From contig OY987250.1 of NCBI GenBank assembly GCA_963920765.1, positions 7,564,001 through 7,628,000 on the forward strand: a DNA stretch of 64,000 nucleotides. The letters run 5' to 3'. Source of the stretch: Ulota crispa. Lineage: Eukaryota; Streptophyta; Bryopsida; Orthotrichales; Orthotrichaceae. Shown here in pieces: positions 123-62,065 of the stretch. A program made the position numbers and the translations under genes. The notes below the pieces were generated by a model that ran no database searches, had not been told where the DNA came from, and saw only the letters and a list, made by a program, of their open reading frames with translations. Position 1 is the stretch's first letter, and each line of letters begins with the position of its first letter.

Positions 123-1242
123 TTAACCTGAGGGTATGTTCACACTTGGTGTTAGGAGGGTATTAGTAAAGGAAAATTAGATGCATTTGGACACATCTTT
201 AAACTGCATTCATATTGTCATAATTTTTTGTAATGTCAAGTATGAACATATTAGTATGTGCCCATGCCATTTTTACCAAAATTGGGGTTTCAAGGAGACT
301 TACATTTTTGATGCATGGTATCTCAATCAATTGGATGATTCACAAAAATTGACCACTGAAAACTGTGGAGCACCTACTCAGAAAATGGCTTGCAAGTTTT
401 GGGAACAATTGTAGGAGATGGGAGATTATAACATGTGATCAAACAACATGTGATGACAAGTTCTCATTTTTTTGCAAGTAGTTGCTATTTATTGATTTTT
501 ACAAAATTATAGAAGTAGTAAGACTAGATGTGAAATGCACACACTCACAAACCTCTGAAAATTTTATTTCTTTGTATGTTAAGTTTTGGGGCTTCAAATT
601 GCTATTGCGTGATAAACAATGACTGACACAAATGGTGAGGACAGCCACAACAAGGGTTCAAGATATGCTTGAATCATTGTTGACAAATTTCTTACTACCA
701 CAAAACTCATGCAAGGAAGCTTGCAAGGGGTATTGACGGGTTGCAACTTGTAAGACAATATGCTTGCCACCTTGCCCTGTATGGCATTCCACCCAATCAA
801 GGCTCTTGAGGCACTTGTACAACATTTGACTTGCCTTGTCATTACTCCAATTACATGAAAATGCCATATTTGTTAAATTGAGAAAAAGCTTACAAAGTGG
901 GACTTTTGAAGAATTAAGGTGGTCACCTTAATCCGAGCTCCAGTGTTTTTTTTGGTACAGGTGGCCTCTCTTGAGAGGAGAAATTTGCGAGGGAAAAAAT
1001 CTTAGTGGCTCAAATTGAATCTGATACTTTGAATCTGGTTTAAGGTGGCTGTTTTGAATTAAGGTGAGATACAAAATGGTACCCAATGTTTTTCCAATTT
1101 AATGAATATGACGTTTGAACCACTTGATTGCCTTGATAATTGTAATTTACAGCAAGGTCAAAAAATTAAATCCAATACCTCAAAAGGGGCTTGTGAAATC
1201 ATGTGAAGCCACTTTTAGGCCTCTGAAGCACTCAGGGGTTAA
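123..1242. mobile_element. TTAA-flanked piggyBac-like element, diverged copy
   Basis: The left end reads TTAACCTGAGGG and the right end GCACTCAGGGGTTAA, so both ends are TTAA plus a C-rich terminus in inverted orientation. The interior from about 180 to 860 matches, in inverted orientation, the interior of the element at 56159-56920. Shared blocks include the one around GGGAACAATTGTAGGAGATG and its counterpart near 56750. This copy is longer because of extra sequence at about 870-1230. Short open frames inside (for example 658-867, minus) are partly conserved between the copies but match no family I recognise. Confidence 0.55.
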
Positions 1243-4200
1243 GTCAACTACAGGTAGTGAGAGAGAAAAGAGCTGATGGATTTTTTCACCCTTCTAGTAT
1301 TCAACTAAAGTAAGTTTAAACCGGCGATCATTTTGTGAAATATGATTTGAAAACTGGGTAGATAGGTTAGAGGCTAACATTGGGTGGAGAATTGGGTTGG
1401 TATGCGTGGATGGATATGGATTTAGAATACGGTTGGGCATTGAGAGGTGCTAACAATATAAGTTAGGATTTTAAGGTTTTTGTTGTCGCAAGCGCCTTGT
1501 GCTCCCACACTAGCCTCATGTTGCTCTCTCTCCAACATTGATATTCTCAAACCTAATTTTGATATTCGCCATTGGATTATTGTGGCTAAACACGAAAGAT
1601 CTATGAAAGATAAGTTATTTGGGGCTAAGTAGGTATATCTAAATTTTACCAGTAAGAATTAGTGAAAGTATGTGTTATCAATAAGAACGTTGGGAATATA
1701 TTTGGCCTTCTCTAAAAGGAAAATTACCAAGGCTGGATCATTGCTGAGGAAATGATTGAGCCTGACACCATAGAGTGCAATCAGTTGGTCGTTCTTGCAT
1801 TGCTGGCCACTTGCTTCACAAGTTTGGCATTTGGAATTGGATCTGCTCTTCTGTAACCTGCTGTAAAAGCTCTTCATTTTTCCTTTCACATCCACCTTAA
1901 TCCTTCACCAGCGTTTTTTTCTGAGTGACAGAGACCACTCCGGTGGCCTGTTTAGATTGGCGGATATTTGGAGGGAACAACACTAAGTGGCTGAAATCTG
2001 TCAAATTTGGCAAAATTTCACCAGAAAAAAAAAACACTGTCCCTCACTACCCCACAAGTAAAATATGTCTCTTGTCTCGTGTGTTTTGTGATACTTGAGT
2101 ATTAAGGATTAATCCGCAAGGTCATCTCCACTTGGTCCGCTATTCTCGTTCCTAAGATAGAATCGTAGGAGACTTTAAAAGCAATCATGTTTTAAATGTG
2201 TTCCCTATATAGAAACAAGTGACATGTTCCTTCATATATCTATTACTATCATTGATGAGTTAGGTAGGCTTAAATGGTCGGTTTATAAACCTCCTACCTT
2301 AACACCAATTAGTAGCGCTAGGTAGGAATCAATCTCTTCCACCATCATGCCAACAATGCCAAGCCAAGAGAGTGGGTTGTTGATCAAGGAGGAGAGCCTA
2401 GGAAAATCCCTCAAATGGCATGTGGGGAGGAAAATTGTTGATTCTCTTATCCTATCTTGTGAAGTCATGTGGTTGATTCTTGTTTGTTGTAGTAATTGCA
2501 AGTCAAGGGAGTGGAGGAGGAGGCAGTAGGAGATGGTGAGGTAGTAAACTTAGGCAGGAGCTATGGTGGGTTAGACAAACTAGCACTACCTACCAACTTG
2601 TCTCTCCTACCTTGTTGCTTGTTGGGTTGCAAAATTGATGTGGCTACTAGAATAGAGTTGCTCTAAGAGTGCATGCATCCATTAAGGGGACAAAATACAA
2701 TTTCAAATATTTGGTGTAAGAGATATATGAAATGGATGAAGTACATCCAAGTATGCATAGAAAGTCAATTTTTGTATATTTTTCACCTATGTGACTAGTC
2801 TAATCATTGGATACTTCATAACTTTGTAAAGTTCTAAATGAGTTCATGTAAAGATAGAGGGAAAATTTGAACTTGCAAAAACAAAAATAAAAAAATTGGA
2901 GCATTCTAAGATTAAACTTTATATTACCTCAAAAGCTCCAATCTACACACTACCCACCTCCTTGCATTTTTAGGGGTTAAGGATGCTTTCTTTGGCATGG
3001 AATATCGGGAAGGTCACTCTATGCATTTATACAACCTACATGTGGCAAAAACTTTGACCCCCCTATATTATGTCCTAAAATTTAAATTAAAGGAAAAGAA
3101 AAAATATGAGTAAATTTTCCTAATTTGAAAGTTTATGTTAAGAATTATTGATAATTTTTTTTGCTAATAATAATAATTAGTTACAAGTCTTTGAAGTAAA
3201 AGGATACACTGTAAAGCTGAAAATAACTTTTGCACCCCTATATTATATAAGAAAAATTGTTTAAAAATTACACAAAAAAATCTAAAAATGAGGTTTTATT
3301 GAAAGTTTATATTTCTTGAATATTGATGCAAAAGTTGTCTAAATGTATTCTCTATAAATATTTGAGTTGAAAAACATACCATTTTAGTTCATTTTTCAAC
3401 CTCTCCAGAAATCATTTAATATATTATTTGGATTGAAGGTTTTGGCAATAGAATCCTATAGTCCTGATTAAACAATGCCCAAAATTATAAGTTGAAATCA
3501 CAGTTTATTAAAAAGTAAATAGGGGGTCAAAAGATTACTTGGCTGCACGTGGTATACTATAGATACACTAAGTGATCTCCCCGAGCATGGAATAAGGATA
3601 AGAAAAACTAACCTTTGGAAAAAAAAAAGTAGATGTAGAGTTACTAAAAAAGAAGAATGATCAATAAATTTCAATTTTTGTTTATTTGAAACTTAGAAAC
3701 TTATTACAAATAAAGAAAAAATACAAGCTTCCTATTTCTTGAAAATACTAAATTGACCGTTTATTGTGCATAACTTTTGGAGCTAGTTTGTTCTCAACTT
3801 GATTCTTTTATGAAGTTTATGAATTTCAGATTCTATACTTTAACATTGTAAGACACTAATTGGTGCAAAGTACGTTTGAACCATATTTAGACATTGTTTG
3901 ACAAGACAAAATCTCCCCTCAATAAAAGGCAAAAGCCCATTCTTTCAAGTTATCAAATGCTTGAAAAGCAAGACATTGAAGTAGATATAAGGGGTTATGT
4001 AATCATGGAGACCGTTAAACAAATATCCATGGTTAAGGAACCTTTGACACCACTTACAAATGGATTTCTTTATTCAATTTTTTTTTCATGTTAATGAATA
4101 AATATGCCATGTCATCAAGTTGAAAATTGTCAAAGTTGACTTAATGCATGTTGGAAAGCTAACTTTGCAAGGCAATGCCTTCAAATTATTCAAGTTGTTT

Positions 4201-4597
4201 TTTTGATAATGCCTCACAAGATCATTGGTGTAGTGATCATATGTAGGGCCATTTTAAATTGTACAAGTTGAAATAACAAACTAGGCAAACATTGGAAACC
4301 ACACACTTTGATTGATGCAAAAAATTTAAGTTGTCATGCTATTAGATCAATTTCATCACAACATGTGCATTTTTATACTAGTAGTCCATTCCTACAAGGA
4401 AACTACACTAGTCAATTCAATTATTTTATTCCACACTAATAAAATTACTTGTACTGATTCATAAATACATGAATTTGCAAGGGGCACTAACAAAGTAATT
4501 TGCATTAATTAGGTTAATTTAATACACCATGTACTACATTGTTCAAAACATATCTAAAGTAGTGTGACTCAAATAGCCAAATTTTCAAGGAGCTTTA
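1243..4597. other. AT-rich intergenic stretch, no gene seen
   Basis: No reading frame here looks like a conserved protein and no splice structure could be built. A single TTAGGGGTTAA terminus at about 2970-2980 looks like one end of a TTAA-type element, but its partner end was not found. CCTCCTACCTTAA near 2289 looks like one terminus of the AGGTA family. Confidence 0.5.
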
Positions 4598-4752: not shown

Positions 4753-5768
4753 TTAGTAAGTACACAATCCAACTAGAGAGTATGTAAAGGATGCCACATT
4801 AGAAAAGTTCTGTCATGAAGGTGCTACTAGAGCTATGAAAAACAAAAACAAAACAAGGGACATGCCACATTTTCATATTAATTTGGCAAAATTCACCAAA
4901 ATTAGTATGAAGGGGTCTTCCCAAACTAATTGACATAATTTGTGTTGTGACTTTCTTGCACTTTTGTGCTAGGACTTCACTACCACAAAGGAAACTAGTT
5001 CTTACAATATTGGTCCAAAACTACCCTTTTGAATAGATACCTCCTTGAGGTGGATTGGACATTTGTTACTCAAAAGTGTCATGAATGCAATGGATTATTT
5101 CAAGTCTGTCAGTGTTCACCCTGAAAGAAAGATATTGGTTCAACTCTTAAGCTTTGTTACCTGAAGCTTATTGCTTCGAACTGTGCAATCTAAGTGCCCT
5201 TACAAGCTTCCAAGGAACACAAGCATATTCATTGATCGATGCAGGCCCGACAAAGTAAGGCAGAAAGGCCGTCTGTTCGAAACCTACAGTAGAGACTCTG
5301 AAACAAGAGGTGCATTTAGCACTGCACAATTGGAACAATATAAAACAGACACCCCTGGTAAGTCAGAGATAGAAAATAACAGCTACATATCCACTACATT
5401 ACTGTTATGGAAGTCTAACATTGTTGACAGATTTCTAAACTATACATCCGATTTCAAACCAGCCCTAACACAGCACCTCTGCTTTGAACAGAATGTGCTC
5501 AGGTCCAGCGTATTCCAGGACCAGCCCTAAAAGGGTGAGAAGCACGCCCAAGGAGAGCTCCATCAGGTTTCTGAATGTAAAGCTTCGTGACAAAGAAAAA
5601 TTCGTACCTATGGAATCAAATTCATGCATAGACGACCGATACAGCAGAGCAGATGTCTACATGGAAATAAACAGAGCTCACAGCTTCAGAGAAAGGGAAA
5701 GAGAAAGAGATGAATAATTATTTTTTTACTACATGGACTGAACGTATTGCGAAATCTGAAAAATAAAA
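4753..5768. other. Region downstream of CLPP4, probable 3' UTR plus spacer
   Basis: This lies 3' of the CLPP4 stop codon, which is on the minus strand at 5769. A plus-strand frame at 5171-5530 has no recognisable domain and is antisense to the likely CLPP4 3' UTR. No separate gene is supported. Confidence 0.4.
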
Positions 5769-8312
5769 CTAATATATTTCATCATCAGGAATTTCAGGGG
5801 TTAAGAACTTCCGTGGATTTTCCATGGCATCTAAATTCTCCTTCCTAGGTTTAGACCTTTCAGTCACAACAGGCAGTTCATTAATAGCAATAATTGCATC
5901 CTTGTCGATGACACCATCAATGATGCCGTATTCCATGGCCTCGATGGGAGACATGTAGCGGTCCCTATCAATGTCCTTCTCTACCTGGAGAAAGCAAAAA
6001 ACCACAAGCTCATCAAATTTCAAATTTTAGCCAGGGCCTTTTCTTTTTTCATTGTTTAACCCTTAAACGACCGAAAGGCCCTTTGCGACCAGTACAGTAC
6101 GAGGTATTTTTCTTGTGTTTAGAATGGATCCACACCTCTATTACATTTGAGACCAAGAAAGAAGTTGGAGAGTAGATCAATGTAGTTTTAGTGAGCTACT
6201 TGAGATCTCAAATTTAAATTTCTTATTGGTAGCAAATGACAATTATACGTCAACGTATATACTATGCCCTATGATCATTTAAGGGTTAAGAAATATGAAA
6301 GTGGCGATTAAAATGTTATAGTGGTGCTCCAAGTTTCAGCATTCATCCACATATTGGATAGAAAATATCACATTAGTACATATTACATGTCTATAATTTG
6401 GTTTTCATCCACAATTTGACAATTTCATCCAGTTTTTGTTTAAAATTTGAAGCCTTTTGGCAATTTCATCCAAGTTTTTTGGCATTTTTTTGACATTTTT
6501 AGCCAGACTGTTCTTTTTTGGTGCAATCTGGCACCAGAAAGCCAAAAAAAAGCCCTGCTCAATACTAGGAAAATCATGGACAAAGTGGTGGATTCAAAGA
6601 ACCATTACCTGCTCAATAGACCGCCCTGTAATCTCAGACAAAATACGCACAATGTTGCTCTTATGGTACATGACCTCCTTCGCTTGGATTTCCACGTCAA
6701 TGGCCTGTCCGCTAGCACCTCCGAGAGGCTGATGCATCATAACTCGGGAATTAGGCATTGCAAAACGCCTTCCTCTTGTACCTCCTGCGAGAACAATTGC
6801 TGCTGTTGAAGCAGCCAAACCGAAGCAGATAGTCGACACGTCAGCTCTACATAGCTGCATGGCGTCAAAGATCCCCATGGCAGCACTGCAAAAGCCAGAA
6901 CAACAGCCAACTCAGCATTCTAGACAAATCACACCGTCGGAGATCCTTGATCAGATGTTCCTAGTTTGCATCCACTCTATATTACTCCCTCTGTCCCAAT
7001 ATAAAGCTCCAAATTAGGCATAGTTCTTGTCCCACTGATAAGAAAGCGTTTGCCATGTTCAATGATCTCATGGGGCAAGTTAAGCGATTAGAGAGCATTC
7101 CTCTCGTAACAAGCTTGGCCTTGCCCATATGAGGTACCATTGTTGCTACTAATCTTTGAATCATTAATAATAAGGAGCTAGCAACGTGTACAAATATGGT
7201 ACTTTTTGCATGGAATTTGGGTGCCCAAACAACAATATCAAATCTGGAGATTTTGCACACATTTGGTAGATGGTATATTGATTCCAGAACGCATGTGTCA
7301 TTAGTACAAAGACTAAAACAATGAAGAGCTTGCAACATTCACAAACTATGCACAAATATGGTACTCTTTTGCATGGAATTTGGGTGCCCAAACAGCAACA
7401 TAAAAACTGGAGATTTTGCAGACATTTAGTAGTTGGTACATTAATTCTAGAATGCATTTGTCACTAGAATAAAAATACGGTTAATCCCTCATGGAGAAAT
7501 TTTTTTGGAGCTTTAAGGTATGTACACCCATAAGCATCAGTGTCCCCATAACCGTCACCTCTGAAATCTTGAAAAATCTGTGGAAGTGAATAGATGTAAT
7601 GACAAGGATGTACAACATGTGAACATGAAATCTTGAAAGTGGTTATGGGTGCAATGGCAGTTTACTTTTTAAAAATTCACAACTTATTCTCACAATATCC
7701 AAATAATACATTTGAAAGTACAAACTTATTATTTTTCTATAGGATCCTACAATTTGCTAGCTGCTTATTGCTACTCATCATGTTCAAAACCCTTAGTTTG
7801 ACGCTTATGGGTGTACATACCTTATAATGGGACAGAGGGAGTACATGACCAAGTGTTTACAGAGTTGCAAATTAGGGTTTGGCTCTGAAACCGCACCTGA
7901 TAGAACCGCCTGGACAGTTCACGAAGAGACGGATTTCCTTCTTCGGGTCAACAGCGTCCAGAAGAAGCAATTGGCTGATAATGGCGTCAGCAACAAAATC
8001 GTCCATTTGATGCCCGAGAAACACAATCCGCTGCCTCAGCATGAGTCCCATCACATCCGCCTCCGCTGACCGCATGGCGGGAGGCGCAGCCTGCGACGCC
8101 GTCGTAGGCGTCCACAACGAATTCTTTGACGCCGTCTCTGTTTCTGGTAACCACGACGAAGAAGAAGTGGCACCGCTCGACATCAATGAAGCCCGCGGAC
8201 TGAATTTTGAAGCCACAAACGATGAGGAGCGCTTCGACACTAACGCGCCTGGCAGGCCGAGCTTCGATGAAGACGTCGTCATCGTCATGGACATCGCTGC
8301 CATCGCTGCCAT
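5769..8312 (-). CDS. CLPP4: Chloroplast ATP-dependent Clp protease proteolytic subunit 4 (3 exons)
   Basis: Exons on the minus strand are 8312-7897, 6885-6609 and 5984-5769. All introns are GT-AG and the phases join cleanly to about 302 aa. CLPP4 is a nuclear-encoded serine peptidase subunit (family S14) of the stromal ClpPR core, which degrades unfolded proteins with ClpC/ClpD chaperones. The first 50-60 residues are rich in Ser, Ala and Thr and poor in acids, as in a transit peptide. The ClpP fold then runs from about residue 85 (RQRIVFLG, NCPGGSI). The catalytic Ser is in GLAASTAAIVL, the His in VMMHQPLGG and the Asp in DIDRDRYMSP. ASTA rather than ASMGA after the Ser, the GGASGQAIDVEIQAKE block and the C terminus FLTPEIPDDEIY point to CLPP4 rather than CLPP3, CLPP5 or CLPP6. 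Intron 1 holds a Stowaway element with a nested MITE; intron 2 holds a TTAA element and another dispersed repeat. The start is the first ATG of a run of Met-Ala codons. Confidence 0.95.
6056..6289. mobile_element. TTAA-flanked piggyBac-like MITE (234 bp) in CLPP4 intron 2
   Basis: The left end is TTAACCCTTAAACGACC and the right end GATCATTTAAGGGTTAA. Both ends carry TTAA followed by CCC, as in other elements of this group at 13685, 33761, 39584 and 60936. It is too short to encode a protein. Confidence 0.75.
6296..6548. repeat. Dispersed repeat, inverted copy of 59933-60190
   Basis: The sequence from GTGGCGATTAAAATGTTATA to about 6545, including CATCCACATATTGGATAGAA and repeated CAATTTCATCCA words, matches the reverse complement of 59933-60190. 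It sits in CLPP4 intron 2 directly beside the TTAA element. It is probably a MITE, but its exact ends are unclear. Confidence 0.65.
6983..7843. mobile_element. Stowaway-type (Tc1/mariner) element in CLPP4 intron 1, with nested MITE
   Basis: The termini are CTCCCTCTGTCCCAATATAA and its inverted partner ending TGGGACAGAGGGAG, flanked by TA on both sides. This is the classic plant Stowaway signature. The interior has a direct duplication: blocks at about 7190-7305 and 7347-7468 both contain GCATGGAATTTGGGTGCCCA. A second MITE (7514-7824) has inserted close to the right terminus. No transposase is present. Confidence 0.85.
7514..7824. mobile_element. TA-flanked AGGTA MITE nested in the Stowaway element
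   Basis: The ends are TA-AGGTATGTACACCCATAAGC and GCTTATGGGTGTACATACCT-TA. Removing it with one TA restores a right Stowaway arm that reads GGAGCTTTATAATGGGAC, matching the other arm (GGAGCTTTATATTGGGAC as its reverse complement) with one change. The same subfamily occurs in inverted orientation at 11870-12207. Confidence 0.85.
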
Positions 8313-8725
8313 CGCGGTCGAATGTCCTGCAACAAAATTGTGTTACAACAAAAATGTATTACAACAGTCGGAGTGGATAGGAAGTTTTTGCTGGACTAGG
8401 GTTTTGAAGGCGGATGGATGATTACGTTCATCCAAATGAAGCACATCCGTTACCACCTCAGGGGTTTTGTGAGAGAACAAACCTGCCGCTGTGCCGCATT
8501 CTTCACTTGCATTGCGGCCTTGAGAACATTTTCCATCACCAGTTTTGATTTGAGAACACTCAATCCTCAGCGGTAGTATCGTAGGAGAGATTTTGAGTAG
8601 TTTTACTAAATTTAGCCGCAATTTTGTACTCTGAATTTGCAGAGTAGGCGCAAACCCTAGCCTTGATTTGTGGCTTACAACGACGGCATTACTGGTAGTC
8701 GAATCGGACTGAGCGAACGAAAAGC
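8313..8725. promoter_or_regulatory. Shared divergent promoter region of CLPP4 and TSR2
   Basis: The CLPP4 start codon (minus, 8312) and the TSR2 start codon (plus, 8726) are separated by about 413 bp. Both 5' UTRs and both promoters must fit in or overlap this space unless there are unseen upstream exons. No clear TATA box stands out. The region is less AT-rich than the surrounding DNA. Confidence 0.65.
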
Positions 8726-13684: not shown

Positions 13685-14326
13685 TTAACCCCTAAATGCT
13701 TGAGGCCTTTTTTGGGCTTCTAGGAATTTGCTTCAAATTGAACAAAAAGACAACATTTTAATAAGTTGTATCAAGTTCTTTTGAATTGTAACCATACACA
13801 TTCAAACTAGATATGTTAAAGGTCACACACAAAAAGAAAACACAACAATATCTCTAATGGATTGAAAGATTATAATGTTTGATCAACAGGATGTTAAAAC
13901 TACAAATATGACTTGAAGCCTTTGAATCCTCTTTTCATATGTTGGATTTAAAAAAATGACCATTAAATATATATAAGGTTAAAGAAAATAACATACATAA
14001 CCCCAATCACTTTATAGCTTTTGAAAATGTTTTTTACAATTTTTTCAAATGAATTTTTTGTCTAGATTTTTCTCCAAGATCTAGTGTATTTGAAGCTCAT
14101 TTCCAAGAGCTCTCAACACTAAAGAAAATCAAGACCCTTGCACAAAAGCTTGAATAAATTTTTTATAATTGATCATTTTCAAAATCCAATTGCTGATCCT
14201 AAAATTAGACTTCACAAATTATAAATCCAAAATGCAAACTACTAAAAATAGCAACTTAGTTAGGTTTATTGAACCTCAGGATATCGCAGACACCAAAATT
14301 TGGTACCGCAGAAATTTAGGGGTTAA
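13685..14326. mobile_element. TTAA-flanked piggyBac-like element (642 bp)
   Basis: The left end is TTAACCCCTAAATGCTTGAG and the right end CGCAGAAATTTAGGGGTTAA. The element at 61426-62065 is a full-length relative of nearly the same length in inverted orientation. They share, for example, TAAGTTGTATCAA and TTGAATTGTAA blocks near the same end. There is no coding capacity. Confidence 0.8.
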
Positions 14327-15795
14327 GGGTTAAAAGCACTTACGATACTGAACTATATTGGCACATGATGAAAGAGGTAACCCGAAAATGTGCAGTAGAA
14401 TCTCAAAGACGGTAGTGGTGGCAAAAATCACAAAAACACAATTGGGAGTTCTAAACTTCAGACACAACGTACTTATTTTCAAGCATTTTCGCTGACAAAA
14501 GTGAATTTCTTGCGCAAATCAAGTTTTGCGCACCTAGCCTTTTAACACAGAAGTCAATCAAATCAGGAGAGTACTTGATCTATGAAGTGTATCTAGACAA
14601 TGCATTACTTCATATATCTACTCCTGCTCTCCTACATGGAACGAGGAGAAAGTATTTTTCAAAATTCATTACTCTAATACGTAGAGATACACTCCAAATA
14701 TCTAATGCTTTTCTGTATTCATTGCTCTCGTACGTAGAAAGAAAAAATGACAAGCAAAACAAAACTTCGAAACCACCGGTGAGAAGATTTTTACACCTTT
14801 TAAGACAGATTTACTTGTGGAATGTACCAAGCTTTAAAGCCTCCTAATCATGATTAGAAGCATCTGCAGCAAAAGTCTCGCCAAAGAGAAACCCAAAGAC
14901 TGGAGCAAATTTCAGGCAAAATTTCGAAATTAGGACTAAGAATTGGAACCACAGGTGAAGGAAATTCCTACTATCCTCTTTCACTACCACGTAACTGCAG
15001 TGTCTCCTTTCACTAACCCTATATATACAGCCAAGGTCTGTAATAATCAAGTCATCTCGAATTGACTTTTTCTAATCATAAAAGAACATTTGATGCTTGT
15101 TAGGAAGTGTCATGGCGGTGCACCCCAACAACAACAGTGAATGATAAATCATAGCAACAACTACAGAAAGAGAGCAGCTGCGTGCTTCGCTTCATTCTCC
15201 CTCTCTCGTGTGTCACATTCATGCTGTTGCTCCCGCCCTGCCAAATTTGAGCGACCTTTAAATTGGGATTTACCCGAAATCACATCTGCCTCATCCTGAA
15301 ATCAGAAGAGTGGAGAACATAAGCAAAAAAAACACAAATCCAAAACTAAATAAAAGATCCAGCAAGAAAGAATACCGGCAGTAGTAACTTTCAAGAGAAA
15401 CAAAAAACCAATCATGTGAATTCCACTAACGCATAATAACACTGCCAGCCTTCATTGCAATGCCATGGTACAGGCCAAGATCTGAATGCAAGCAATTACA
15501 ACATGCATATAAAATACATGCAACGTGACAACCGAGGCAACTAGCATTTGAATATTTCATCACAGCTCCTCCCAACAGTACCAGTGAATACAATAACCTC
15601 AAAAACTGAATCGAAAATCAAGCTCCTTCTCAGAATGTGCAATAATTTTAGTGCGTATCAAAGAAAGAGCTGGCTATTAGGAGCAGTTTCCAAGACAAAA
15701 ACCTACTAGCCCTCATTGCAGAACGAGCAATTGTGAATACCCCGAGGCAACGAGAATTTTGAAAATTTTAAAGTGTGGTAGGACTGTTACCTGCT
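14327..15795. other. Spacer downstream of GUN4
   Basis: No supportable gene. A plus-strand frame at 14575-14847 shows no recognisable domain. Part of 15000-15790 could be downstream transcribed sequence of GUN4, but the sequence does not show this. Confidence 0.35.
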
Positions 15796-16125: not shown

Positions 16126-17738
16126 TTACCGAGACTTTCCGAAGAGGCTAGTCACGGGACTCGCACGCATCTTGCTCTGCTCATCCACAGCATCAAAGGC
16201 AGGGTGGTTCAAAACCTCCTCCAGCAACCTGGTTCCTCTCAAAGCATTCGTGAGAGGCAAGTGCCCCTCGGGAGTGGTAGCAGCAACGTCCCAAATAAAC
16301 TCCAATGGAAACTTTTTGTACGTGTCCTGGTACTCGTCCAAGGGCCGCGTCCATCCCACCTTCTTAAAAAAGGCGTTCCACACCTTTCCTGAATTGTTCC
16401 AGATCTTCTTCTGCACGCTGTACCCGAATTTACCGTTGCTGTACTGCCGCCACAAGCCGTCGACTTTCGTTAGGTCAGACACGGTAATGAACTTGACCTC
16501 GGAGAAGTAGACCCACTTCCGCTTCACTGCCTCCTCACCCGCCAGGACGCAGAGTAACCGCCGCGTCTCCGCATCTGCGGCTTCCCACTCCCCCGCGGCG
16601 AGCTTGTCTCGTAGGGTTTCCAGTGACGCGCCGGCCTCCGTCACGAGGTCTATAGTCGTCGCCAGCTCCTAATCGGCACGCATCAAAGCATAACCCAATT
16701 TTAGGAGTTATTGCCTTAATAACTTTAAAAAATATGTGTTTTTAACTAATTTAATATTAAACATATCAACAGGCTGAAATCTCAATACAAGAATTGACAT
16801 GACGGCATAGTGCTTAATGAATGAACCTTGCAATTCTTCAAGCGTGTTAAGGTAGGAGGCTCATATTCCGCTCAGGTTCTGAAAACTGTCCACCTTTTCA
16901 AATGTATTTCATGTGTACATGCTGTTTTTCATAGGTTTCAAAAATGTACAAGCAGAATATATTTGAGGAGGTGAGCCATTTTAGAACCCTATGGCCTTTT
17001 CACTTCAAAATTTTATAACTAATTCCACAAAGCTCCAAAAATTATGAAACAACTTGGGTTAGATGTCAATTCTTCTTGTCTTTCAAGGAAAATCTACTAA
17101 AAAATAGTTCAAGAAGTTTCACCTCCCCAAAACTTAGTTTCTGCCCTTAGATGGTCCATTCATGAGCCTCCTACCTTAATGCTGTTAACCCCTGAGCGCC
17201 TAGCCCAAATTCATGCCGTGTTGGACCTCATTGCAAAGAATTTGACACAGCAAATTCAAAAGCAACATCTGGACGAGTTACCTAGTTGTTGATATTGCAC
17301 AAGACTTAGGGTCCGTAAATATACAAAAAACTTGATAAGTTTTCATTGCACAGATCAAAAGATTCTAACTGTCAAAGACAACAACAACCTGTTGAATATG
17401 GAGAGGCTAGATTTGAGGGTTGATAGTATTTTGTTATTATTAAGCAGGAGAAGGATTTGTAGGAGAATGAAAAGAGATAAGGTTTGGATTGGTACCTGTT
17501 CGACGCCGTCGCGTTTCTGGCTGGAGACAGAGACCGCAATAGAAGACCTGTTTCCCACGGCAAAGCTACGACAACCACCACCGGAGCTCGACTGCACTGC
17601 GCCAGTTTGGACGAAGCAGTTCCTGGAGCTCAGCAGACGGGAGGGCAATGTCGCCGAGCAAGCTCTCGTGGTTGCGGCGCCATTGTTTCCATTCGAGCTC
17701 GCGGCACAGACCAGAGAGGAGCTTTGCAGCAACGCCAT
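16126..17738 (-). CDS. GUN4: GUN4 tetrapyrrole-binding protein, chloroplastic (2 exons)
   Basis: Exons on the minus strand are 17738-17496 and 16668-16126, joined in phase 0 across a GT-AG intron of about 830 bp, giving about 261 aa. GUN4 binds protoporphyrin IX and Mg-protoporphyrin IX, stimulates Mg-chelatase through the CHLH subunit, and takes part in plastid-to-nucleus signalling. Exon 1 encodes a Ser/Ala/Gly-rich chloroplast transit peptide. Exon 2 has a short N-terminal helix (LETLRDKLAAGEWEAADAET) leading into the GUN4 core. Core motifs visible are KWVYFSEVKFITVSDL, VDGLWRQYSNGKFGYSVQKK, WNAFFKKVGW, EFIWDVAA and GHLPLTNALRGTRLLEEVL, with the family's typical length. The intron contains one AGGTA MITE and a solitary TTAACCCCTGAGCGCC terminus. 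Another MITE lies directly after the stop codon. Confidence 0.95.
16848..17178. mobile_element. TA-flanked AGGTA MITE in the GUN4 intron (331 bp)
   Basis: The ends are TA-AGGTAGGAGGCTCATA and CATGAGCCTCCTACCT-TA. It is the same length as the copy at 53431-53761. A TTAACCCCTGAGCGCC terminus begins only 7 bp further on at 17185, but no matching right end was found. Confidence 0.85.
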
Positions 17739-18419: not shown

Positions 18420-18800
18420 GCAGCTCGGAGATGAGTTCAAGAGATACATATTCAAGATCAGCTCAGAGATGAGTTCAAGGGATACGTATTCAAGATCAAC
18501 ATGAGTCAAGGGATATGTATTCAAGATCAACACAAGTTTAAGGGATATGTATTCAAGATCAACACAAGTTTAAGGGATATGTATTCAAGATCAACACAAG
18601 TTTAAGGGATATGTATTCAAGATCAACACAAGTTTAAGGGATATGTATTCAAGATCAACACAAGTTTAAGGGATATATATTCAAGATCAACATGAGTCAA
18701 GGGATACGTATTCAAGATCAACATGAGTCAAGGGATACGTATTCAAGATCAACATGAGTCAAGGGATACGTATTCAAGATCAACACAAGCTCAAGGGATT
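18420..18800. repeat. Satellite array, unit about 31-32 bp (left part)
   Basis: About a dozen tandem copies of a unit built from AAGGGATATGTATTC and AAGATCAACACAAGTTT. Copies vary between ACAAGTTTAAG and ATGAGTCAAG. The array is broken at its right side by a CACTA element and resumes at 21874. Confidence 0.9.
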
Positions 18801-18954
18801 TGTATTCACACTAGTAGAAAACTCCTTCCAAAACAACACAAAATCAACAATTTCTTATTCATTTGGGCACTTGCCCACGCTAATTGACTAATTTAACAAA
18901 ATTCTGTAAAAAACTAAATACATTCTGTTGATTTGGACACCATTATCTAAATCA

Positions 18955-19650
18955 ACAGAAATTTTGGGATCTTTTCAAGATCTTTTGGGAATTTTTTGTG
19001 AATCTTTCAGAATCTTCAAGAATCTTTTGGGAATCATAGAGAATCTTTTCAGGATTTTTAAGAATATTTAAGAATCTTTTCAAGATTTTAGAATTTTTGA
19101 GAATATTCTTGGAATCTTTTAGAATCTTTCAGAAATCTTTTAGAATCTTTTGGAATCTTTGGAAATCTTTTCAAGTTTTTTTGAAATCTTTGAGAATGTT
19201 TGAGAACAATTGAGAATCTTTGAGAATCTTTGAGAATCTTTTTGGAATCTTCAAGAATCTTTGGAAATCTTTGGGAGTCTTTTCAAGTTTTTTTGGAATC
19301 TTTGAGAATGTTTGAGAATCTTTGGAAATTTTTGAGAATCTTCTTGGAATCTTTGAGAATCTTTTAGGAATGTTTGAGAATTCTTGAGAATCTTTGAGAA
19401 TAGTTTGGAATATTTGAGAATCTTTGGAAATGTTCTAGGAATTTTGAATTTTTTTGAGAACTTTTGAAAATCTTTATGAATAATCTTGGAATCTTCTTGG
19501 AAGCTTTGAGAATCTTTAAGAATCTTTGGGAATCTTTGGAAATCTTTTGAGAATCTTTTTGGAAATTCAAAAAATCTTTGAGAATCTTTGAAAATTTTCA
19601 AGAACCTTTTTGGAATCTTTGAGAATCTTTTTAAAATCTTTATGAAATTT
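18955..19650. repeat. Degenerate decamer-like array (GAATCTTTGA) inside the CACTA element
   Basis: Dozens of imperfect repeats of GAATCTTTGAGAATCTTT with variants GGAATCTTT and GGAAATCTTT. It causes spurious minus-strand frames rich in Lys, Phe, Asp and Ser (for example 19251-19601). Confidence 0.85.
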
Positions 19651-21606: not shown

Positions 21607-21873
21607 CTAAAAAGTTCACTTTTTCATAAAATAAAATAAAATTTTATGAAAAAAAAAATTAAAAATTAAGAAGAAATAGAATTGAAAAACATGAAATACG
21701 TGAAAAGTAACAGAAATCAACAAAAAATTAATAGAAAACTGTAAATAATTAACAAAAAATCAATAGAAAATCAACAGAAAAGTACCCAAATCAACTTGAC
21801 CAAATCCACAGAAAAATCAACAGTTTTTGGTTGAAATTCTGTTGATTTTGTGATGAATCTTCTACTAGTGTCA

Positions 21874-22016
21874 AAATCAACACGAGTTCAAGGAATATGT
21901 ATTCAAGATCAACAAACGTTGAAAGGATTTGTGTTAAAGATTAACAGAAGTTCAAGGGATTTGTGTTTAAGATCAACATGAGTTCAAGGGATCCGTGTTC
22001 AAGATCACAGGAGGTT
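21874..22016. repeat. Satellite array, right part after the CACTA insertion
   Basis: About four further, more diverged copies of the 32-bp unit seen at 18420-18800 (ATCAACACGAGTTCAAGG, then GTATTCAAGATCAACA). Together with the TCA duplication this shows that the CACTA element inserted into an existing array. Confidence 0.85.
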
Positions 22017-41395: not shown

Positions 41396-41532
41396 TAAGC
41401 AAGTGAAAACAAAGATCTTTAAGGTTCAATTATTGAAAAAAATTTACAATTTTGATTTGCTAATTATTTTATTGAGAGAGGTCAATTTTGAGCCATTTGA
41501 CCATGTAAACAAGAAAAAAATTTAGGGGTTAA

Positions 41533-43027: not shown

Positions 43028-46000
43028 ATGGATCACCGGAAGGCAGGCGTCATTGCGTTGTTCGACATTGACGGCACACTCACTCCGCCACGCAAGGTGC
43101 TCATAATTCCAGCTCTCTTTTTCCTTCCGTAATCTTAATTCACGTTAGCCACAGAAAGAAAGATGTCATTCTTCATTAGATTCTTATACTTACTCAATCT
43201 TGCTTTACTTTGAGGAAAAATGTTGTTTGTCAGTAGATTTTTATAAGTCTGCAATCTTGATTCACTGTGAGAAAAGATGCTGCTCTTCATTAGATTCTTA
43301 TACATTTGTAATCTTAATTCACTTTGAGGAAAGATGTTGTTTATCACTAGATTCTTATACATTTGCAATCATGATTCACTTTGAAAAAAAGATGCTGAAC
43401 ATTCCTGATTAGATTCTCATATGTCTGCAATCTTGATTCATTTTGAGGAAAGACGTTGTTTGTCATTAGATTCTTGTAAGTCTGCAATCTTGATTCACTT
43501 TGAAAAAAGATGCCCTTCGTGATCAGATTCTTATAAGTTTGCAGTCTTGATTCACTTTGAGAAAAGATGTCGTTTGTCATTAGATTCTTATACATTTGCA
43601 ATCTTGATTCATTTTGAGAAATGATGTTGTTTGTCATTAGATTATTGTACATCTGCAATCTTGATTGACTTTGATAAAAGATGTTTGTCGTTAGATTCTT
43701 TTATGTTTGCAATCTTGATTCACTTTGAGGAAAGATGTTGTTCAGTCATTAGATTCTTACACATTTGCAACCTTGATTCACTTTGAGGAAAGATGTCATT
43801 CGTCATTAGATTCTAGCTATACTCCGAGTGACGTGAAAGTTATGTTGTGTTGAATTTGATGTCTGTTTTGCTCACAGCTCACAAATGCCTTTGTGATGTT
43901 CACGTTCAAATGCTTCTTGTGAGACAAGGAAGGTTTTTGTGATTGTGTAAGTGCAGAGTGGCTTTTACAGAGTGTGCAATTTCAGAATGCTAGTACTAAT
44001 AGCTTTTCTGTATTGTTGATGTTGATGACAGATTATAACATTAGAAATGCTTGAGTTTCTCCAAGAGCTTCGTAAGGTAGTACACGCTACTCTATATATT
44101 GGCAATCTATAATTGCACATTCCGTATGCATATATTCTTGACATTTGCGGTACTATGCAAATGTTTGATTGGACCACTTCCTCTTCTTATGATGTTGTGA
44201 GTATATGTGAGGGTACGTTTAGGAGCCAATTTTCCTTTTAAGGGAGGCAATGTTGTTGGATAAAGCTCCTTACGGCATGTTGGTGCTCAAGCCCCAAACC
44301 CATTAAAGGCAGTTTATTAACAAAAAAAAACTGTGAAATACAGATGATTGGCAAAGTGTTATGTTCCTTTCCCTTGAGAACAAAAAAGAGGGGCCACTCC
44401 TTGTGAAAAGAAAATTCTGTTGTAGTTAATTGTTCGTCACTAACCAATGTCATTGGAGAGGGTTGAACATACTACCGTTTTCCGTTTGTTCACCATGCTC
44501 TAGACCATCAATGTTTGATGCTTATTACACAAAACGAAAGTGCACAAATTATCCAAACAAAAGCATATGCTTGAAGCGTGTGGATGGTATTTTGGCTCAC
44601 ATATTGATGTATGATTGTCAAGTAATCAGTGTTCAAGATCTTATAAATTATTAGATAAAATTATCTTCCTATTGAGTTTACATTGATGACCAGAAAGCTC
44701 AGTCTAGGAGTACCGTGAGTTGGTTTGTGATGGCATGATGGTCATTTTCACAGGTGGTGACTGTGGGTATTGTGGGCGGCTCAGACCTTGCCAAGATTAT
44801 GGATCAGCTTGGAAAATCTGGTACAATTTCCACATTGTTGCAATTTTTCTGCCTTCTTTGCTATGAATCAGCTGAGTTGATCAGTCAACGCTGCTTTTTC
44901 AGATTTGACACTTAAGCATCTTTAGTACGAGATTCTCCAGAATCACTTTGTACAAGATCTTGTATACTTGTTACACCATTGACTGAGCACAGTTGCATAG
45001 TCAGCTCACACGAAAAATCTCGTGTGAAGTGCCATAAAAATTTCCATAGAATCGCACATATTGTCCATTACAACGACAGATAATCCCATAATTATAATAT
45101 GGCAAAAGCTACATGCGATGTAAATAACCTTGTAGAGTTTGTACCTCGTGGTATGCTTGCATCAGATGGAATCAAGTATTTCAAAGTTTCTTGCTTATAG
45201 ATGTTATATGCATTTGTCCGACAGTACGGAATTATTCATTATCTGGTTGTCAGACTTGCAATCTCAAGCTAAGGCTCATGGATTTCTTTTGTTTTTATAT
45301 TTTTGTGTCAACAATTCCCCATGAGCAGTTTTTCAGGTTGTCGTATGTCAAATGCATCGATTTACCAAGAATATCGAGAGTTCAAACTCTTTGGCTTAGC
45401 AAAAAAATTCCACTATCCACTGAAAATTTAAGATTTCACTCACAAGGATCCAATATGACCTTGTATTGTAGCTTTTAAAAATTATGTTACTGTCATTTCA
45501 TTGAGACCCTAGACAATTCGGTTGCTGAGGCCATTTATATATTGGGTGAAAGGAAGATGGTTAACAAATGTGAGCATTTAGATGAATTAAATAGTAAACT
45601 CTAGGACACTCTATAGTCTATATTCAAGGATAACTTATGTCCAAAAACCTTCTTGAGCCTTTCAACTTTTGAAATGTCTCTTGTCAATTAACTTACCTTT
45701 ATTGGGCAGTGGAGAAGTCCTTCATTGACGAGCCAGATTTAAATGCTTGCAGTTGTGCTAGAATATGACTACGTATTCTGTGAAAATGGCTTGGTTGCTT
45801 ACAAAGATGGATTGCTTATTGGGAGTCAGGTATCCACGGATTTCCTCACAAACTGTGACATTGCTTTTCCAAGTTCATAATGCCAAGTTGTGCTATAGAG
45901 GCACCGTTGTAATGTTCTAGTTGGTAGGTCAATAGACAGTTATTTTTATCTCAAAAAATCCTGTTGCTTTAATGAGGCCCCTCATATCAACCCAAAGTAC

Positions 46001-49000
46001 ATCAAAATTGGACTGTCATTTTTAATAAAGAACTCAACGTTATGCCTAATAACCTTCTCAAACCTCCAAACTTCGAATAGCCATTGTCAAGCCATTGCCC
46101 GGCATTCATCTCATTCCATGCAGTACAACTGATGGGTAGCAATCTGATGTGGGGGTGTAGAGCATTAAAAAGCACCTTGGTGAGGAGAAGCTGAAGGTGC
46201 GCTAATTCTTCACTAACCTGAAAAGCAACCAGTTTTTGAAATATTTTCTCTTGTCTACTTGCAAGAAAATATCAGCATCTCAAACATACCCGTAACCCTC
46301 TCTAATGTCACCTCTCTACAATTGCACACTTGTAATCCACTTTCAGAATATCTTGTCATGCTGTGTTCACATCTGGTTGGCCAAAGAAAAGAGACACGCA
46401 TCATGAAGCCCATCTTCCTGATGCAAGTTTGCGGCGGCAATCCCAAATAACACCATATTAGGTAAATTGGGAAAATGGGGTCCCAATTTGTACGTCACTT
46501 GGATCCAAAGAAGTCACCCAAAACCAAATTTGAAGGTTTTAGATTCAATTTGAGCCATTAAGATTTTTTCCCTCACAAATTCTTCCTCTCAGGTGAGGAC
46601 ACGTGTACAAAAAAGAATGCTAAGCTCAAATATAGGTGATGACCTACAACCCTCAGAAGTCCCAAAATGTACCCTTTTTCCCAGTTTACCTAATACGGTG
46701 TTAAATGTGATTTTCATAAATAGCACAGCGGCCTTAAACATTGCTAAATGTGCTAAAAAATCAACAAAAATTGCATTCATATATTTTTGCAATAATGTGA
46801 GTAGGAGTTCTACTAAATTTAGCCACGTTTGAGATTACTGGCTTGAAGTGATTGCTAACACGTTGGTCGAGTGGATGGTCACAGGAGTTCATTAATTTTG
46901 CTTTACTATACATGGCCCATCTTGATATTCCTGTCAAGAGGTTAGGTACACTAAGATCATTTACCCTTCTCCTTCCTTGTTCATCAATCTTAACTTCCCA
47001 ATATTTCTTTGACAGTGAAGGCAGTTTCTATTAAAATGGCACATATTCTTATTGCGCAAATTGAGTTACGCAAGCAATTTTCCTATGATAACTAGGATTG
47101 TCAGTAGTTTTTTTCATACACCTTACAAAAATAAACTAAGTTTTGAATTTTGTTAGAGAAGTTTGCCAAATTGTAGTGCAGAAGAAAGAGAAGCTTGTTG
47201 TTAATTCATGGGTTGGTGATTGTGAACAGAGGTACATTTGTAGAGTTCCGGGTGGGAATGGTGAATCTTTGCCCTGTCGGTCGAAATTGCAGCCCAGATG
47301 AGCGAGAAGCATTCATCATGTATGACGAGGTACATTCCTCTTGCTACTTTAGCCTACCAGCATGTTCATCCCAAATGATTCCATAAAAGCAAGTTGAAAA
47401 AAATGAATAATTGTGAATTATAGTAGGAAAGAGTTGTGTTATAAATATGTTAAGATGCTAACAGAATCTAACATGCATGGTTGAACTGATGCAATAAGAG
47501 TGCAATTATGTATACAAGTATTATTTGTACCTAAACCCTTAGTGGATTTAATGAGCTTTTAGTTATTGACATTGGAGTTGAACATTTTTTATTTTTTATT
47601 TGGAATGGTGATTTTTAGAAAAAGAATTAAGACAATAGTGAACTTAATTTTGCACTTTAGTTAATTATTCACCTTATATCTTGCAAAGTTACTATTAGGC
47701 TAGTAATTAGAGGATAAACGTGTCAATGTGGAGGCATGCCATTTTTCATTTTCAGGATTGTATGTGGCACATTCTCTTTTGCCTTGTATTCAAGTATGCT
47801 CACTCATTTGCATTTATTGCAATTTTAAGCATTGGTTATGCCAGCTTAAATATTGCATGTGGTGTGTTCTATGGATTGTAGTGAGCACAAGTGAATACCT
47901 TAATGTTTCACAACTAAGTGTGACTTGCACCCACAATAAAGTTATAATGCACCATATGCAATACACCTACATCACAATGACAACTAAACCATGTGACACA
48001 TCTATGATGGATCATTACTTGAGAACCTGTCATATGATATAAATACTACGTTGAACAACATTTACCTGTAAGTTACAAAGTATTTGAAAGACTAATTTAT
48101 TCTATGATTGTTAGTGTAGAAGCACAATGTAAGGAGAACATTTGTTGAGGTGCTAAAATCAAGATTCAAAGATTACAACCTTATCTTCTCAATTGGGGGT
48201 CAAATTGGCATTGATGTAAGTTTTCTTCCATTTGACAATGAGTATACAATAGGTAAGACCTTGCTTAAATGTGGTATGGATAGGACCAATATTACACACG
48301 GGATAGTTTGCATAGCATTAAGTATGAGATTATTGATACCAGGATTTTGTCAGGGCTCTATCATATAGACACGCAGTTACACTAGTATGAACTAATCTTG
48401 AAAATGGTAGAGAACTGCTCCTTAGGGTTTCCCTTTCAGTGAAACATGGCGTTGGATATTTCCTGACCATTTTAATTTTGACCCTACCAGGTATTCCCTG
48501 TAGGCTGGGACAAGACATTCTGCCTGGAATTCCTTGACAAAGCATTTTCAGAGATCCATTTCTTTGGGGACAAAACCAACCTGGTAAGTTTATTCTTTAC
48601 AACCACCTCTGCTCTAGATAAGCAACTATCATCTCAACTCAAATGAAGCCACTTGTCTAGTCTGAAGAGTACTAATATATTCTACAGCAAATAGTCCATT
48701 TGTTGTGACACGGAGACATCATCCTTTGAAATCCGGTCATTTCTCATATTACAAAATGTATGGAAATGACAGGGAGGCAACGACTACGAGATTTTCCAAT
48801 CTGAGAAGACGATTGGCCATACAGGTATACACAGTAATTTGCAGTAATAATACATATCCTACTACACCAGGTAATGCACACACAGAAATTTGCAGTAATA
48901 ATATATCATACTACACCAGGTAATGCACAAGTGTCGAAGACCTTGTGAAGCTTTATAAGAAAATGGAAGCATAAAACTTCGTGGGACTGTCATGCAGTGA

Positions 49001-53430: not shown

Positions 53431-53761
53431 TAAGGTACGAGGCTCATAAACCGTCCATATAAGGGCTGAAACTGGATTTTGGGGAGGTGAAACTTTCTGA
53501 AATGTTTTTCAGTAAATTTTCCTTGAATGCCAACAAGAGAAGTTGGCATCTAATCCAAGTTGTTTCATATTTTTGGAGCTTTGTGGACATAGTTATGAAA
53601 TTTTGAAGTTGAAGTGCATAGGGCTCTAAAATTGTCCACCTCCTCAAATGTATTCCACTTGTACATTTCTGAAGCTCATAAAAAACAGCATGTACAAAGG
53701 ACGTACATTTGAGAAAGTGGACGGTTTTAATGCCCGGATGGTTTCAGAGCCTCCTACCTTA
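53431..53761. mobile_element. TA-flanked AGGTA MITE upstream of the carrier gene (331 bp)
   Basis: The ends are TA-AGGTACGAGGCTCATA and AGAGCCTCCTACCT-TA. The interior matches 16848-17178. It lies about 470 bp upstream of the carrier start codon, at the edge of its presumed promoter. Confidence 0.85.
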
Positions 53762-56158: not shown

Positions 56159-56920
56159 TTAACCCCTAAGTGCCCCCATTGCCTCATATATTGCCTCCCA
56201 TGATTTCAAAGCCTTGTTTGAAGCATTGGATCTAACTTTTTGATCTTGCTATAAATTACAATTATGAAGACATTCAAGTTGTCAACGCCAATGGAATAAT
56301 GGCAACAAAAATCAAATGTTGTACAAGTGCTCCAAGAGATTTGATTGGGTGAAACACCATACAGGGCATGGTGGCAATTAGCATTTTACCAATTGCAATT
56401 GGTCAATATTCCTTACAAGCTTCCTTGAGTGTGCTTTGTGGTAGTGGGAAAGTTGTTGGAAAGGGTTCAAGCATGTTCTAGACCCTTATTATGGCAACCG
56501 TCACTGATTGTATCAGTCATTGTTTTCCGTGCAATAGCAATTTGGAGCCCTAAAACTTGACATAAAAGAAGTACAAACTTCACTAATTTACAAGTGTGTG
56601 CATCCACATCTAATCTTGCTACCCACAAAATTTGAGATGAATTAAGGATTTATAGAATTTTATAAAAATTAATAAATAGCAATTACCTGCCAAAAAATGA
56701 GATTTTGCCATTACGTGTTGTTTGATGAAATGTTATAATCTCCCATCTCCCACGGTCAATTGTTCCCAAAATTTGCAAGCCATTTTTTGAGTAGGTGTTC
56801 CACTATTTTCAATGGTCACTTATTGTGGATCATCCAAATTAGTTGAGATATAATGCACCCAAGTTGTCGGTATCCAAAAACCATGACTTTGGTGAAAACA
56901 ACATTATTGCTCAGGGTTAA
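56159..56920. mobile_element. TTAA-flanked piggyBac-like element (762 bp)
   Basis: The left end is TTAACCCCTAAGTGCCCC and the right end TTGCTCAGGGTTAA. The interior is an inverted, diverged copy of the element at 123-1242. Shared words include ACCATACAGGGCA against its counterpart near 780. No long open frame remains. Confidence 0.7.
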
Positions 56921-59662: not shown

Positions 59663-59665
59663 TAA

Positions 59666-60284: not shown

Positions 60285-60333
60285 TAAGCACATGGTTTTG
60301 AACTTCACATGAGATATTTTCTTCAGCTTCTTA

Positions 60334-60935: not shown

Positions 60936-61316
60936 TTAACCCCTAAACGCCCATGAGGACGATTATCGTCTTTTGACCTTGAAAAAAAATTTGTACAACA
61001 AAAAAAAGTCGTTTTTCATTTGTTTTTTTTTCAAAGTGACCATAAACACATGATTCATCATAGAAGGCAAAAAATCATCTTATCAAATATGCTCATATTT
61101 TTAAGTAACTCAAATTGTGAGAAAATTCAAAATCATGGTGTTGGGTCCCAAGTTGCCCTTATTGCAATTTTCATGAGGTTGGCATGCACTATTAACTTTT
61201 GAAACTTTTAAAAGCAATACTATTGGTGCCCATCAATCAAAACACTGTTGATATATTTATTGTTGAACCTACAGTGTGGGCAGGCCACGGCCACCCAACG
61301 GTCCTTTAAGGGTTAA
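60936..61316. mobile_element. TTAA-flanked piggyBac-like element (381 bp)
   Basis: The left end is TTAACCCCTAAACGCCCATG and the right end ACGGTCCTTTAAGGGTTAA. No coding capacity. Confidence 0.78.
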
Positions 61317-61425
61317 GTACCGCAGGAATGCTTGGAGAGCTTTGTTCAAGGCTTGCCATGAACTTTGTAGCAGAGGACAAAAGAGAATATATAAATCCAC
61401 GATTTGAAAGGGTATCACTTTTCTG

Positions 61426-62065
61426 TTAACCCCTAAGTACCTAAGGCACCAAATTTTGGTGTTAACAATGTTTTGAAGTTCAATAAACCTAACAAAGTTG
61501 CTATTTTTAGTAGTTTATATTTTTGAACTATTCTTTTTGAAGTCTAGTTTTGGCATCAAAAAGCTAATTTTGAAAATGATTGATTATGATTTTTCTATTC
61601 AAGATTTTGTATAAGGGTCTTAACTTTTTGTAGTGTTGAGAGCTCTTGGAAATGAACCTCAAACACAATAGATCTTTAAGAAAAAGTCACATTAGAAATT
61701 CATTTAAAAAATTGTATAGTAGATTTTGAGAAGTCATAAATTGGTTGGAATTATGCATGTTAGGCCCTTTAACCTCATATTTTTTTGGTGACCAACTTTT
61801 TGAATTTGACATGTGAAAAGAAGATTGAAAGAATTCAAATCACTTTCACAATTTTAACACCCTCATGATCAAACATTACAATCTTTCAATCCATAAGAGG
61901 CAATGCTGTCTTTTCTTTTCTAATGAGATCCCTAACATGTTTAGTTTGATTTTATATGTTTACAATTCAAGAAGAGTTGATACAACTTATCAAAATGTTG
62001 ACTTTTTGTTAAAATTAGAACAAACTCCTAGAAGCCCCAGAAATGCAATGTCATTTTGGGGTTAA
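61426..62065. mobile_element. TTAA-flanked piggyBac-like element (640 bp), inverted relative of 13685-14326
   Basis: The left end is TTAACCCCTAAGTACC and the right end TCATTTTGGGGTTAA. Read as reverse complement it follows 13685-14326 along its length, for example CTTCTAGGA and GATAAGTTGTATCAA near the same terminus. Confidence 0.8.

Follow-up and report, generated by a model that had tools for sequence, protein, structure and literature searches.

TTAA-flanked elements of the window

The stretch analyzed here, 64,000 nucleotides of the Ulota crispa genome (contig OY987250.1, positions 7,564,001 to 7,628,000; C9:7564001-7628000; hereafter the window), carries eleven short TTAA-flanked repeats, whose relation to piggyBac transposons is the subject of this report. 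Coordinates are those of the window unless a locus label (L0xx) is given. A preliminary description had listed the eleven as running from TTAACC to GGTTAA. When the sequence was read back, all eleven lay where they had been placed and all ended in GGTTAA, but only ten began with TTAACC, the exception at 38307 starting TTAAAC. TTAA stands symmetrically at both junctions of the elements, and 21 of the 22 ends continue with 5'-CC after it. The elements (no strand assigned) and the solitary ends (found by pattern match) were as follows.

247 to 1242 (left limit approximate): degraded TTAA miniature; right end co-terminal with, and same family as, 56159-56920; contains an unrelated ~200-bp repeat at ~864-1066
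6056 to 6289: 234-bp TTAA miniature with TTAACCCTTAAA at both ends; an L027 copy stops at the same point on the right, as judged by eye; the empty site at window 60212-60043 reads TAAA
13685 to 14326: 642-bp TTAA miniature; co-terminal copies in L007, L010, L024 and at window 61426-62065, a member of its family
27956 to 28503: 548-bp TTAA miniature within a dispersed repeat; its first 19 bp recur unchanged at both ends of the L034 transposase element
33761 to 33998: 238-bp TTAA miniature, recognized by its ends alone
38307 to 39237: 931-bp TTAA miniature of a very abundant family; best non-self copy 94% over full length; bases 468-931 align to the last 476 bp of L033 at 60%
39584 to 39832: 249-bp TTAA miniature; co-terminal 88% copies in L034 and L026, 68% copy in L028
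42203 to 42614: 412-bp internal-deletion derivative of a piggyBac transposase-bearing element, aligning to both ends of the L036 element
56159 to 56920: 762-bp TTAA miniature, family of 247-1242; in place of the degraded end at 56920, the L026 copy shows a clear TTAACCCTTGAGTGCC
60936 to 61316: 381-bp TTAA miniature; copy at L035 7958-8277, right end matching by eye
61426 to 62065: 640-bp TTAA miniature of the 13685 family, in inverted orientation; its first 49 bp align at 82% to the right end of the L034 transposase element
2970 to 2980, minus strand: solitary end TTAACCCCTAA
5794 to 5804, minus strand: solitary end TTAACCCCTGA, absent from the earlier list
17185 to 17195, plus strand: solitary end TTAACCCCTGA
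41522 to 41532, minus strand: solitary end TTAACCCCTAA, possibly a chance match

Both boundaries were backed by aligned copies in the sampled loci for 13685-14326, 38307-39237, 39584-39832, 42203-42614, and 61426-62065 and, with the right end judged by eye, for 6056-6289, 56159-56920, and 60936-61316. In the case of 27956-28503, a copy backed the right boundary and empty copies the insertion site; for 33761-33998, no further copy was found in the sampled loci at E 1e-6. Position 123, previously given as the left end of the first element, was ruled out: homology with three other copies begins at 268-270, and extrapolation from the L026 copy places the end at ~245-250. Several window ends are degraded, that at 56920 among them. 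The interiors, described before as unrelated, are indeed diverse, but some form families (13685 with 61426; 123, corrected to 247, with 56159). Likewise, the three solitary ends reported earlier are all present, but the list was incomplete, lacking the one at 5794-5804 on the minus strand.

Tandem remnants of ends (TTAACCCTTAACCCC, TTAACCCATTAACCC) were seen at window 14316-14333 and at L036 1587-1603 and are possibly excision footprints or serial insertions. The ~200-bp dispersed repeat inside the first element is separate from the miniatures and occurs at window 864-1066 and 46444-46703, at L031 5785-6001, and also in L026, L018, L008, and L024.

Element 27956-28503 interrupts a dispersed repeat of which uninterrupted copies were found in the window, L020, and L027. 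Two of those in the window were delimited by alignment.

16882 to 17178, minus strand: uninterrupted copy of the host repeat, empty site CTAA
53431 to 53728, plus strand: second uninterrupted copy of the host repeat, empty site CTAA

When the flanks of this element were joined over a single TTAA, they aligned gap-free to empty sites (window 17163-16964, 53456-53646, and 16107-15902; L027; L020) reading CTAA in five cases and CTGG in one. No TTAA copy was present among these sites in the window, L020, and L027, so the copy that was hit may have had a different sequence, or else insertion was at CTAA. The empty sites of the elements at 6056 and 42203 read TAAA and TTGA, respectively. In the wider sample, the element at L016 1722-2609 sits inside relatives of the L034-type miniature, which carry a single TTAA at this position in L026, L028, L034, and L001 and TTGA in L024, and single-TTAA empty sites were found once for L011 6170-7105 and twice for L015 6747-7674. 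The remaining joined flanks fell in low-similarity or tandem repeats and were left aside. As with the TTAA duplication of piggyBac, the empty sites are four bases long, with TTAA at several of the sampled elements and sequences one or two bases away from it at others.

The ends are far more frequent than chance predicts. With at most one mismatch, TTAACCCCTAA occurred 22 times in the window versus 1.48 times expected, and none of 100 shuffles reached 22. In the genome (274.8 Mb in 157 contigs; reversed patterns served as controls), the exact 11-mer TTAACCCCTAA was found 17,299 + 17,363 = 34,662 times versus 115 + 116 = 231 times for the control. The preliminary description had proposed a whole-genome search for the ends; the pattern TTAACCCYTRA occurred 55,720 times versus 2,128 times for the control, and if the excess ends are paired, there would be ~27,000 elements. 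The end type of the moss elements can also be given as TTAACCCCTAAATGCC. Twenty 10-kb stretches of a single contig (C1), one per 2 Mb, were sampled, and together with the window they held 124 ends at a score threshold giving 0 in one Markov resampling, a count that is not independent of the end-score matrix, which was built from the same sequence. Of the neighboring ends 100 to 1500 bp apart in this set, 32 pairs converged, 20 diverged, and 22 shared a strand, and at a looser threshold the 15 variable end bases matched better between convergent than between divergent neighbors (mean, 10.4 versus 7.8). Convergent pairs, not all of which are true elements, spanned ~9.7% of the 200 kb of C1 (24 pairs) and 6.0% of the window (8 pairs); 4 of the 20 stretches had no end at all. 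Perfect back-to-back ends (TTAGGGGTTAACCCCTAA), as expected if elements insert into a TTAA adjoining other elements, were found at 453 places in the genome and at none in the control. Based on 1,735 TTAA sites in 264 kb (~1.8 million genome-wide), a rough calculation for random targeting predicts ~170 such places, so that some clustering is likely.

Transposase-bearing elements and their ends

A search for DDE_Tnp_1_7 genes had also been proposed, and abundant transposases were found: PF13843, the piggyBac domain, gave 120 match rows genome-wide from the 116 candidates scored of 528 (best E, 1.3e-73), 10 of the 120 being without an internal stop. For comparison, hAT gave 39 matches from 89 candidates, all scored; this count is indicative, as model lengths and scoring coverage differ from those for piggyBac. 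Nine transposase loci were fetched, selected by a high score or a low number of stops rather than randomly (L029 to L032 at 6 kb and L033 to L037 at 10 kb), and PF13843 was confirmed in five of the five transposase pieces given. The motif T[VIM]DE was present in 9/9 loci, the second DN in 9/9, the third D in 8/9, and DQ in 9/9; the catalytic DDD of piggyBac, to whose residues we take these positions to correspond, is thus represented in 9/9, 9/9, and 8/9 loci at its three positions. Among PDB entries, the L030 protein matched piggyBac (6x67, 4.1e-20) and piggyBat (9c0f, 5.8e-17), and a profile of the nine loci matched piggyBat (9c0f, 1.4e-54) and piggyBac (6x67, 6.3e-47). A C-terminal cysteine-rich pattern was seen in L033, L034, and L037, the other six loci being truncated or not read that far. 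In a tree of the nine transposases, L033 grouped with L034 (100/99) and L030 with L032 and L036 (100/100), while four other forks were without support; the ends were similar within and different between these two clades. An AlphaFold model of the transposase had a mean predicted local distance difference test score (pLDDT) of 43 and was set aside. Viral contigs held no DNA matching peptide patterns of one transposase piece (L034). Directly after the transposase of L033, at ~5973-6622, lies a long microsatellite (IHTY repeats).

The transposase lies between convergent ends 5.2 to 7.5 kb apart in four of the five 10-kb loci, the fifth (L033) showing the right end only.

L034 1967-7712: transposase element of 5,746 bp, TTAACCCCTAAATGCCTAA at both ends
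L037 2695-7924: transposase element, TTAACCCCTTGAGG at both ends
L035 211-7705: transposase element, TTAACCCTTGCA at both ends
L036 1595-7250: transposase element of 5,656 bp, ends TTAACCCATTAAGGA and TTGACCCTTTAAGGA, right site TCAA

A transposase-bearing element with these ends, named beforehand as the finding that would support a piggyBac origin, was therefore recovered in 4/5 of the 10-kb loci, and its ends start with CCC, as those of piggyBac do. The 6-kb loci are too short for both ends; the right end was seen in L030 and L032, was degraded in L029, and was uncertain in L031, where the sequence just beyond an end-like site at 4889 matches the inside of other elements.

Upstream of the transposase, an open stretch with the consensus WRYLFYRQIAKLLGW was conserved in L029, L030, L031, and L036 and, more weakly, in L037; this type of domain was not found in L033, L034, or L035. 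Three copies had no Pfam match at E <= 0.001, and a predicted model (mean pLDDT, 65) had no PDB match at E <= 0.001. A genome search with the L030 copy gave 50 rows. In 22 of them, a scored transposase followed 1.2 to 3.7 kb downstream in the same orientation, versus 0.08 by chance (21 distinct transposase rows, one pair being an inverted duplicate). No row was otherwise arranged relative to a scored transposase within 7 kb, and the remaining 28 had none in their vicinity; most transposase candidates carried no score. This linked domain is a testable new component and probably represents either an additional N-terminal exon or a separate helper.

Because left-right matching over 15 end bases is too weak alone, whole elements were aligned, with sixteen queries compared to seven transposase loci (reversed control, 0 matches). 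Nine queries matched and seven did not. The miniatures L024 8497-9416, L026 8292-9245, and L028 8568-9499 aligned over 584 to 586 bp to one end of the 5,746-bp L034 element (82.8 to 84.2% identity) and over 203 to 225 bp to the other (62.6 to 67.4%), with 109 to 166 bp between them unaligned. In the window, 42203-42614 matches the L036 element at both ends but lacks its middle, with bases 1-232 pairing with element bases 1-232 (68%) and bases 263-412 with element bases 5506-5656 (64%); L024 2367-3270 and L027 4168-4767 have the same both-ends relation to this element. The last 464 bp of 38307-39237 are common to the L033 end region (60%), and the first 49 bp of 61426-62065 match L034 (82%), so that 3 of the 11 window elements (42203, 38307, and 61426) match at element ends. 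The seven unmatched window elements were assigned by their ends.

Origin of the miniatures and alternative explanations

The analysis observed ends common to the elements, copies that are co-terminal, empty sites, transposase genes flanked by like ends, and miniatures aligned to both ends of larger elements. Taken together, they make it very probable that the short repeats are miniature piggyBac elements mobilized by the transposase of larger relatives with the same ends. The earlier proposal that a piggyBac-like or otherwise TTAA-specific transposase acts or acted in this lineage gains support from PF13843 genes lying between such ends and from miniatures aligning to both of them. The DDD transposase of 5- to 7.5-kb elements of the same families would bind the shared ends (CCC[C/T]TAA[A/G]...), excise the elements, and insert them at TTAA, which would become duplicated. 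At least some miniatures would have arisen when a large element lost its middle, including the transposase gene, and kept both ends, and would then have multiplied in trans. Transposition itself and its chemistry are predicted here from homology to piggyBac. Window elements without a matched transposase element presumably arose likewise, and each transposase lineage may prefer its own end type.

Several observations weigh against this account. Comparison with the seven transposase loci left 7 of the 11 window elements without a match and gave only a weak internal one for 27956-28503 (62%, 186 columns). The left end was not seen in the 6-kb loci L029 to L032, and site 894 of L032 was dropped as a left end, since the upstream domain of the L032 element maps further out and 894 thus lies inside the element. 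For each of the four large elements taken singly, the agreement of left and right ends over 15 variable bases is weak when set against random end pairs (null tail, 0.02 to 0.54). None of the empty sites of window elements reads TTAA (the sequences are CTAA, CTGG, TAAA, and TTGA), the TTAA ones belonging to other sampled elements, and an empty site at a symmetric TTAA alone fits both a 4-bp TTAA duplication and a 2-bp TA duplication with strict TTAA preference. None of the nine loci holds a complete intact transposase gene, stop-free domain rows number only 10 of 120, and present activity can at most be surmised from sequence. There was also no sign of a very recent burst, the closest non-self copies being at 96% and 94% among the best copies of the two miniatures searched. 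For the 920-bp L034-type miniature, the 40 best of 2,439 initial candidates were scored, comprising the element itself and 39 others at 87 to 96%. For the 931-bp window element, the 40 best of 9,848 were scored (46 match rows), with 39 near-full-length matches at 89 to 94%. Both ranges refer to the best copies alone, and none of these is fresh. PF13843 was found in none of 14 control genomes; this carries little weight and is no test of eukaryotes, because LEAFY and hAT gave none there either.

The ambiguity of the empty sites bears on whether the repeats are instead miniature inverted-repeat transposable elements (MITEs) located at TTAA by coincidence, either of the Stowaway-like Tc1/mariner kind (TA) or of the Tourist-like PIF/Harbinger kind (3-bp TWA). 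Both Tourist and Stowaway figure among the MITE groups of plants (PMC10004981), and duplication of 2 bp (TA) at a target fixed as TTAA would leave an identical empty site; yet the 3-bp TWA of PIF/Harbinger disagrees with symmetric TTAA at both junctions and four-base empty sites, and the transposase between these ends is DDE_Tnp_1_7, which argues against both superfamilies and makes such an origin highly unlikely. Judged by ends and alignments, it is just as improbable that the miniatures are Kolobok elements and the piggyBac genes unrelated neighbors. Kolobok does generate 4-bp TTAA duplications, but its ends are described as 5'-RR/YY-3' (PMC9587614), whereas the window ends read 5'-CC in 21/22 cases and are found with a piggyBac transposase, several miniatures aligning to both ends of piggyBac-bearing elements.

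A different question, compatible with piggyBac identity and concerning activity, is whether the population is long dead, an ancient fossil set without a working transposase. Stops in 110 of 120 domain rows, best non-self identities of 96% and 94%, and the degraded window ends all point that way; the 10 stop-free rows point the other way, and the fossil reading draws on two families for copy identity and on 116 of 528 transposase candidates scored. This may well be the case, although we lean slightly against it. With the miniatures taken as piggyBac derivatives, we also put forward, tentatively and as a nearly balanced possibility, that an old piggyBac radiation has diversified in mosses (or at least in this moss lineage) with a distinctive architecture of 5- to 7.5-kb elements, often with the WRYLFYRQIAKLLGW-type upstream domain, and that it is a major source of MITEs in the genome.

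Relation to known systems, host, and other features

PiggyBac is a well-known superfamily, treated as animal centered and used as a standard gene delivery tool. Animal piggyBac-derived MITEs are short internal-deletion derivatives sharing their ends with a transposase-bearing element; the same relation is seen here, in a land plant, and over ~9.7% of the 200 kb sampled on one contig. The major MITE source in flowering plants is usually Tourist- and Stowaway-type elements. The moss elements resemble the superfamily (6x67, piggyBac; 9c0f, piggyBat) in DDE_Tnp_1_7 with DDD, the TTAA target, and CCC-starting ends and, going by the pattern read in 3/9 loci, possibly in a cysteine-rich C-terminal stretch, and they differ from known piggyBac in the moss host, the extra conserved upstream domain in many copies, and the tens of thousands of ends. 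At 5.2 to 7.5 kb (four bounded cases), they are longer than canonical piggyBac (~2,472 bp), and piggyBac ends have been reported as CCCTC, CCCTT, and CCCAT (PMC10813416).

That piggyBac is not a usual part of land plant genomes, as the preliminary description had it, fits a 2008 paper on plant cut-and-paste transposons, which recognizes just five superfamilies from plants, piggyBac not among them (PMC2528002), but passages of later reviews list PiggyBac among angiosperm MITE superfamilies (PMC10004981) and call piggyBac known in plants (PMC10140906). Plant repeat tables share the name, but in trace amounts compared with the abundance seen here (C-fern, 1,230 copies, 122 kb, 0.00%; Stipa, 1 copy), and the available parts of these papers describe no transposase-bearing lineage beside the "PiggyBac" entries (PMC6890710, PMC8319324). 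Among the papers listed in a literature search, no title or abstract opening described abundant piggyBac in bryophytes, and in the passages of a moss genome paper that came up (PMC10619864), only "piggybacking" matched. PiggyBac itself is known; what is unusual is that a land plant harbors a lineage of such diversity and abundance. Hundreds of transposase candidates, at least two well-supported clades with different end types, and what would be ~27,000 short derivatives would widen the known range of the superfamily and provide a piggyBac lineage native to a plant, for study and perhaps application.

The host had been described as a plant, which is borne out and narrowed to a land plant, a moss. 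The LEAFY model gave two genome rows, read as two exons of one gene, which matched PDB entry 4bhk at 60/61 and 103/105 residues (one residue in both); 4bhk, which we take to be from Physcomitrella, was the closest of the five LEAFY sequences listed, well above 2vy1, presumably Arabidopsis LEAFY. The three residue differences and a genome of 275 Mb, smaller than that of Physcomitrella, set the host apart from that moss. Two host genes were identified in the window.

16126-16668, minus strand: GUN4 (PF05419, 1e-51)
7872-8342, minus strand: Clp protease subunit (PF00574, 7.8e-16)

Three open stretches at 22495-24875 on the minus strand give the impression of a broken hAT-like transposase, with no Pfam match. 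At 40489-41396 lies a large, near-perfect inverted repeat with 304-nt arms (40561-40864 and 41020-41323; 95% complementarity) and outer 88-nt arms (93%). Tandem arrays occur at 43101-43814 (period, ~57), at 18457-18808 and 21839-22039 (~32), and at 18953-19559 (~10).

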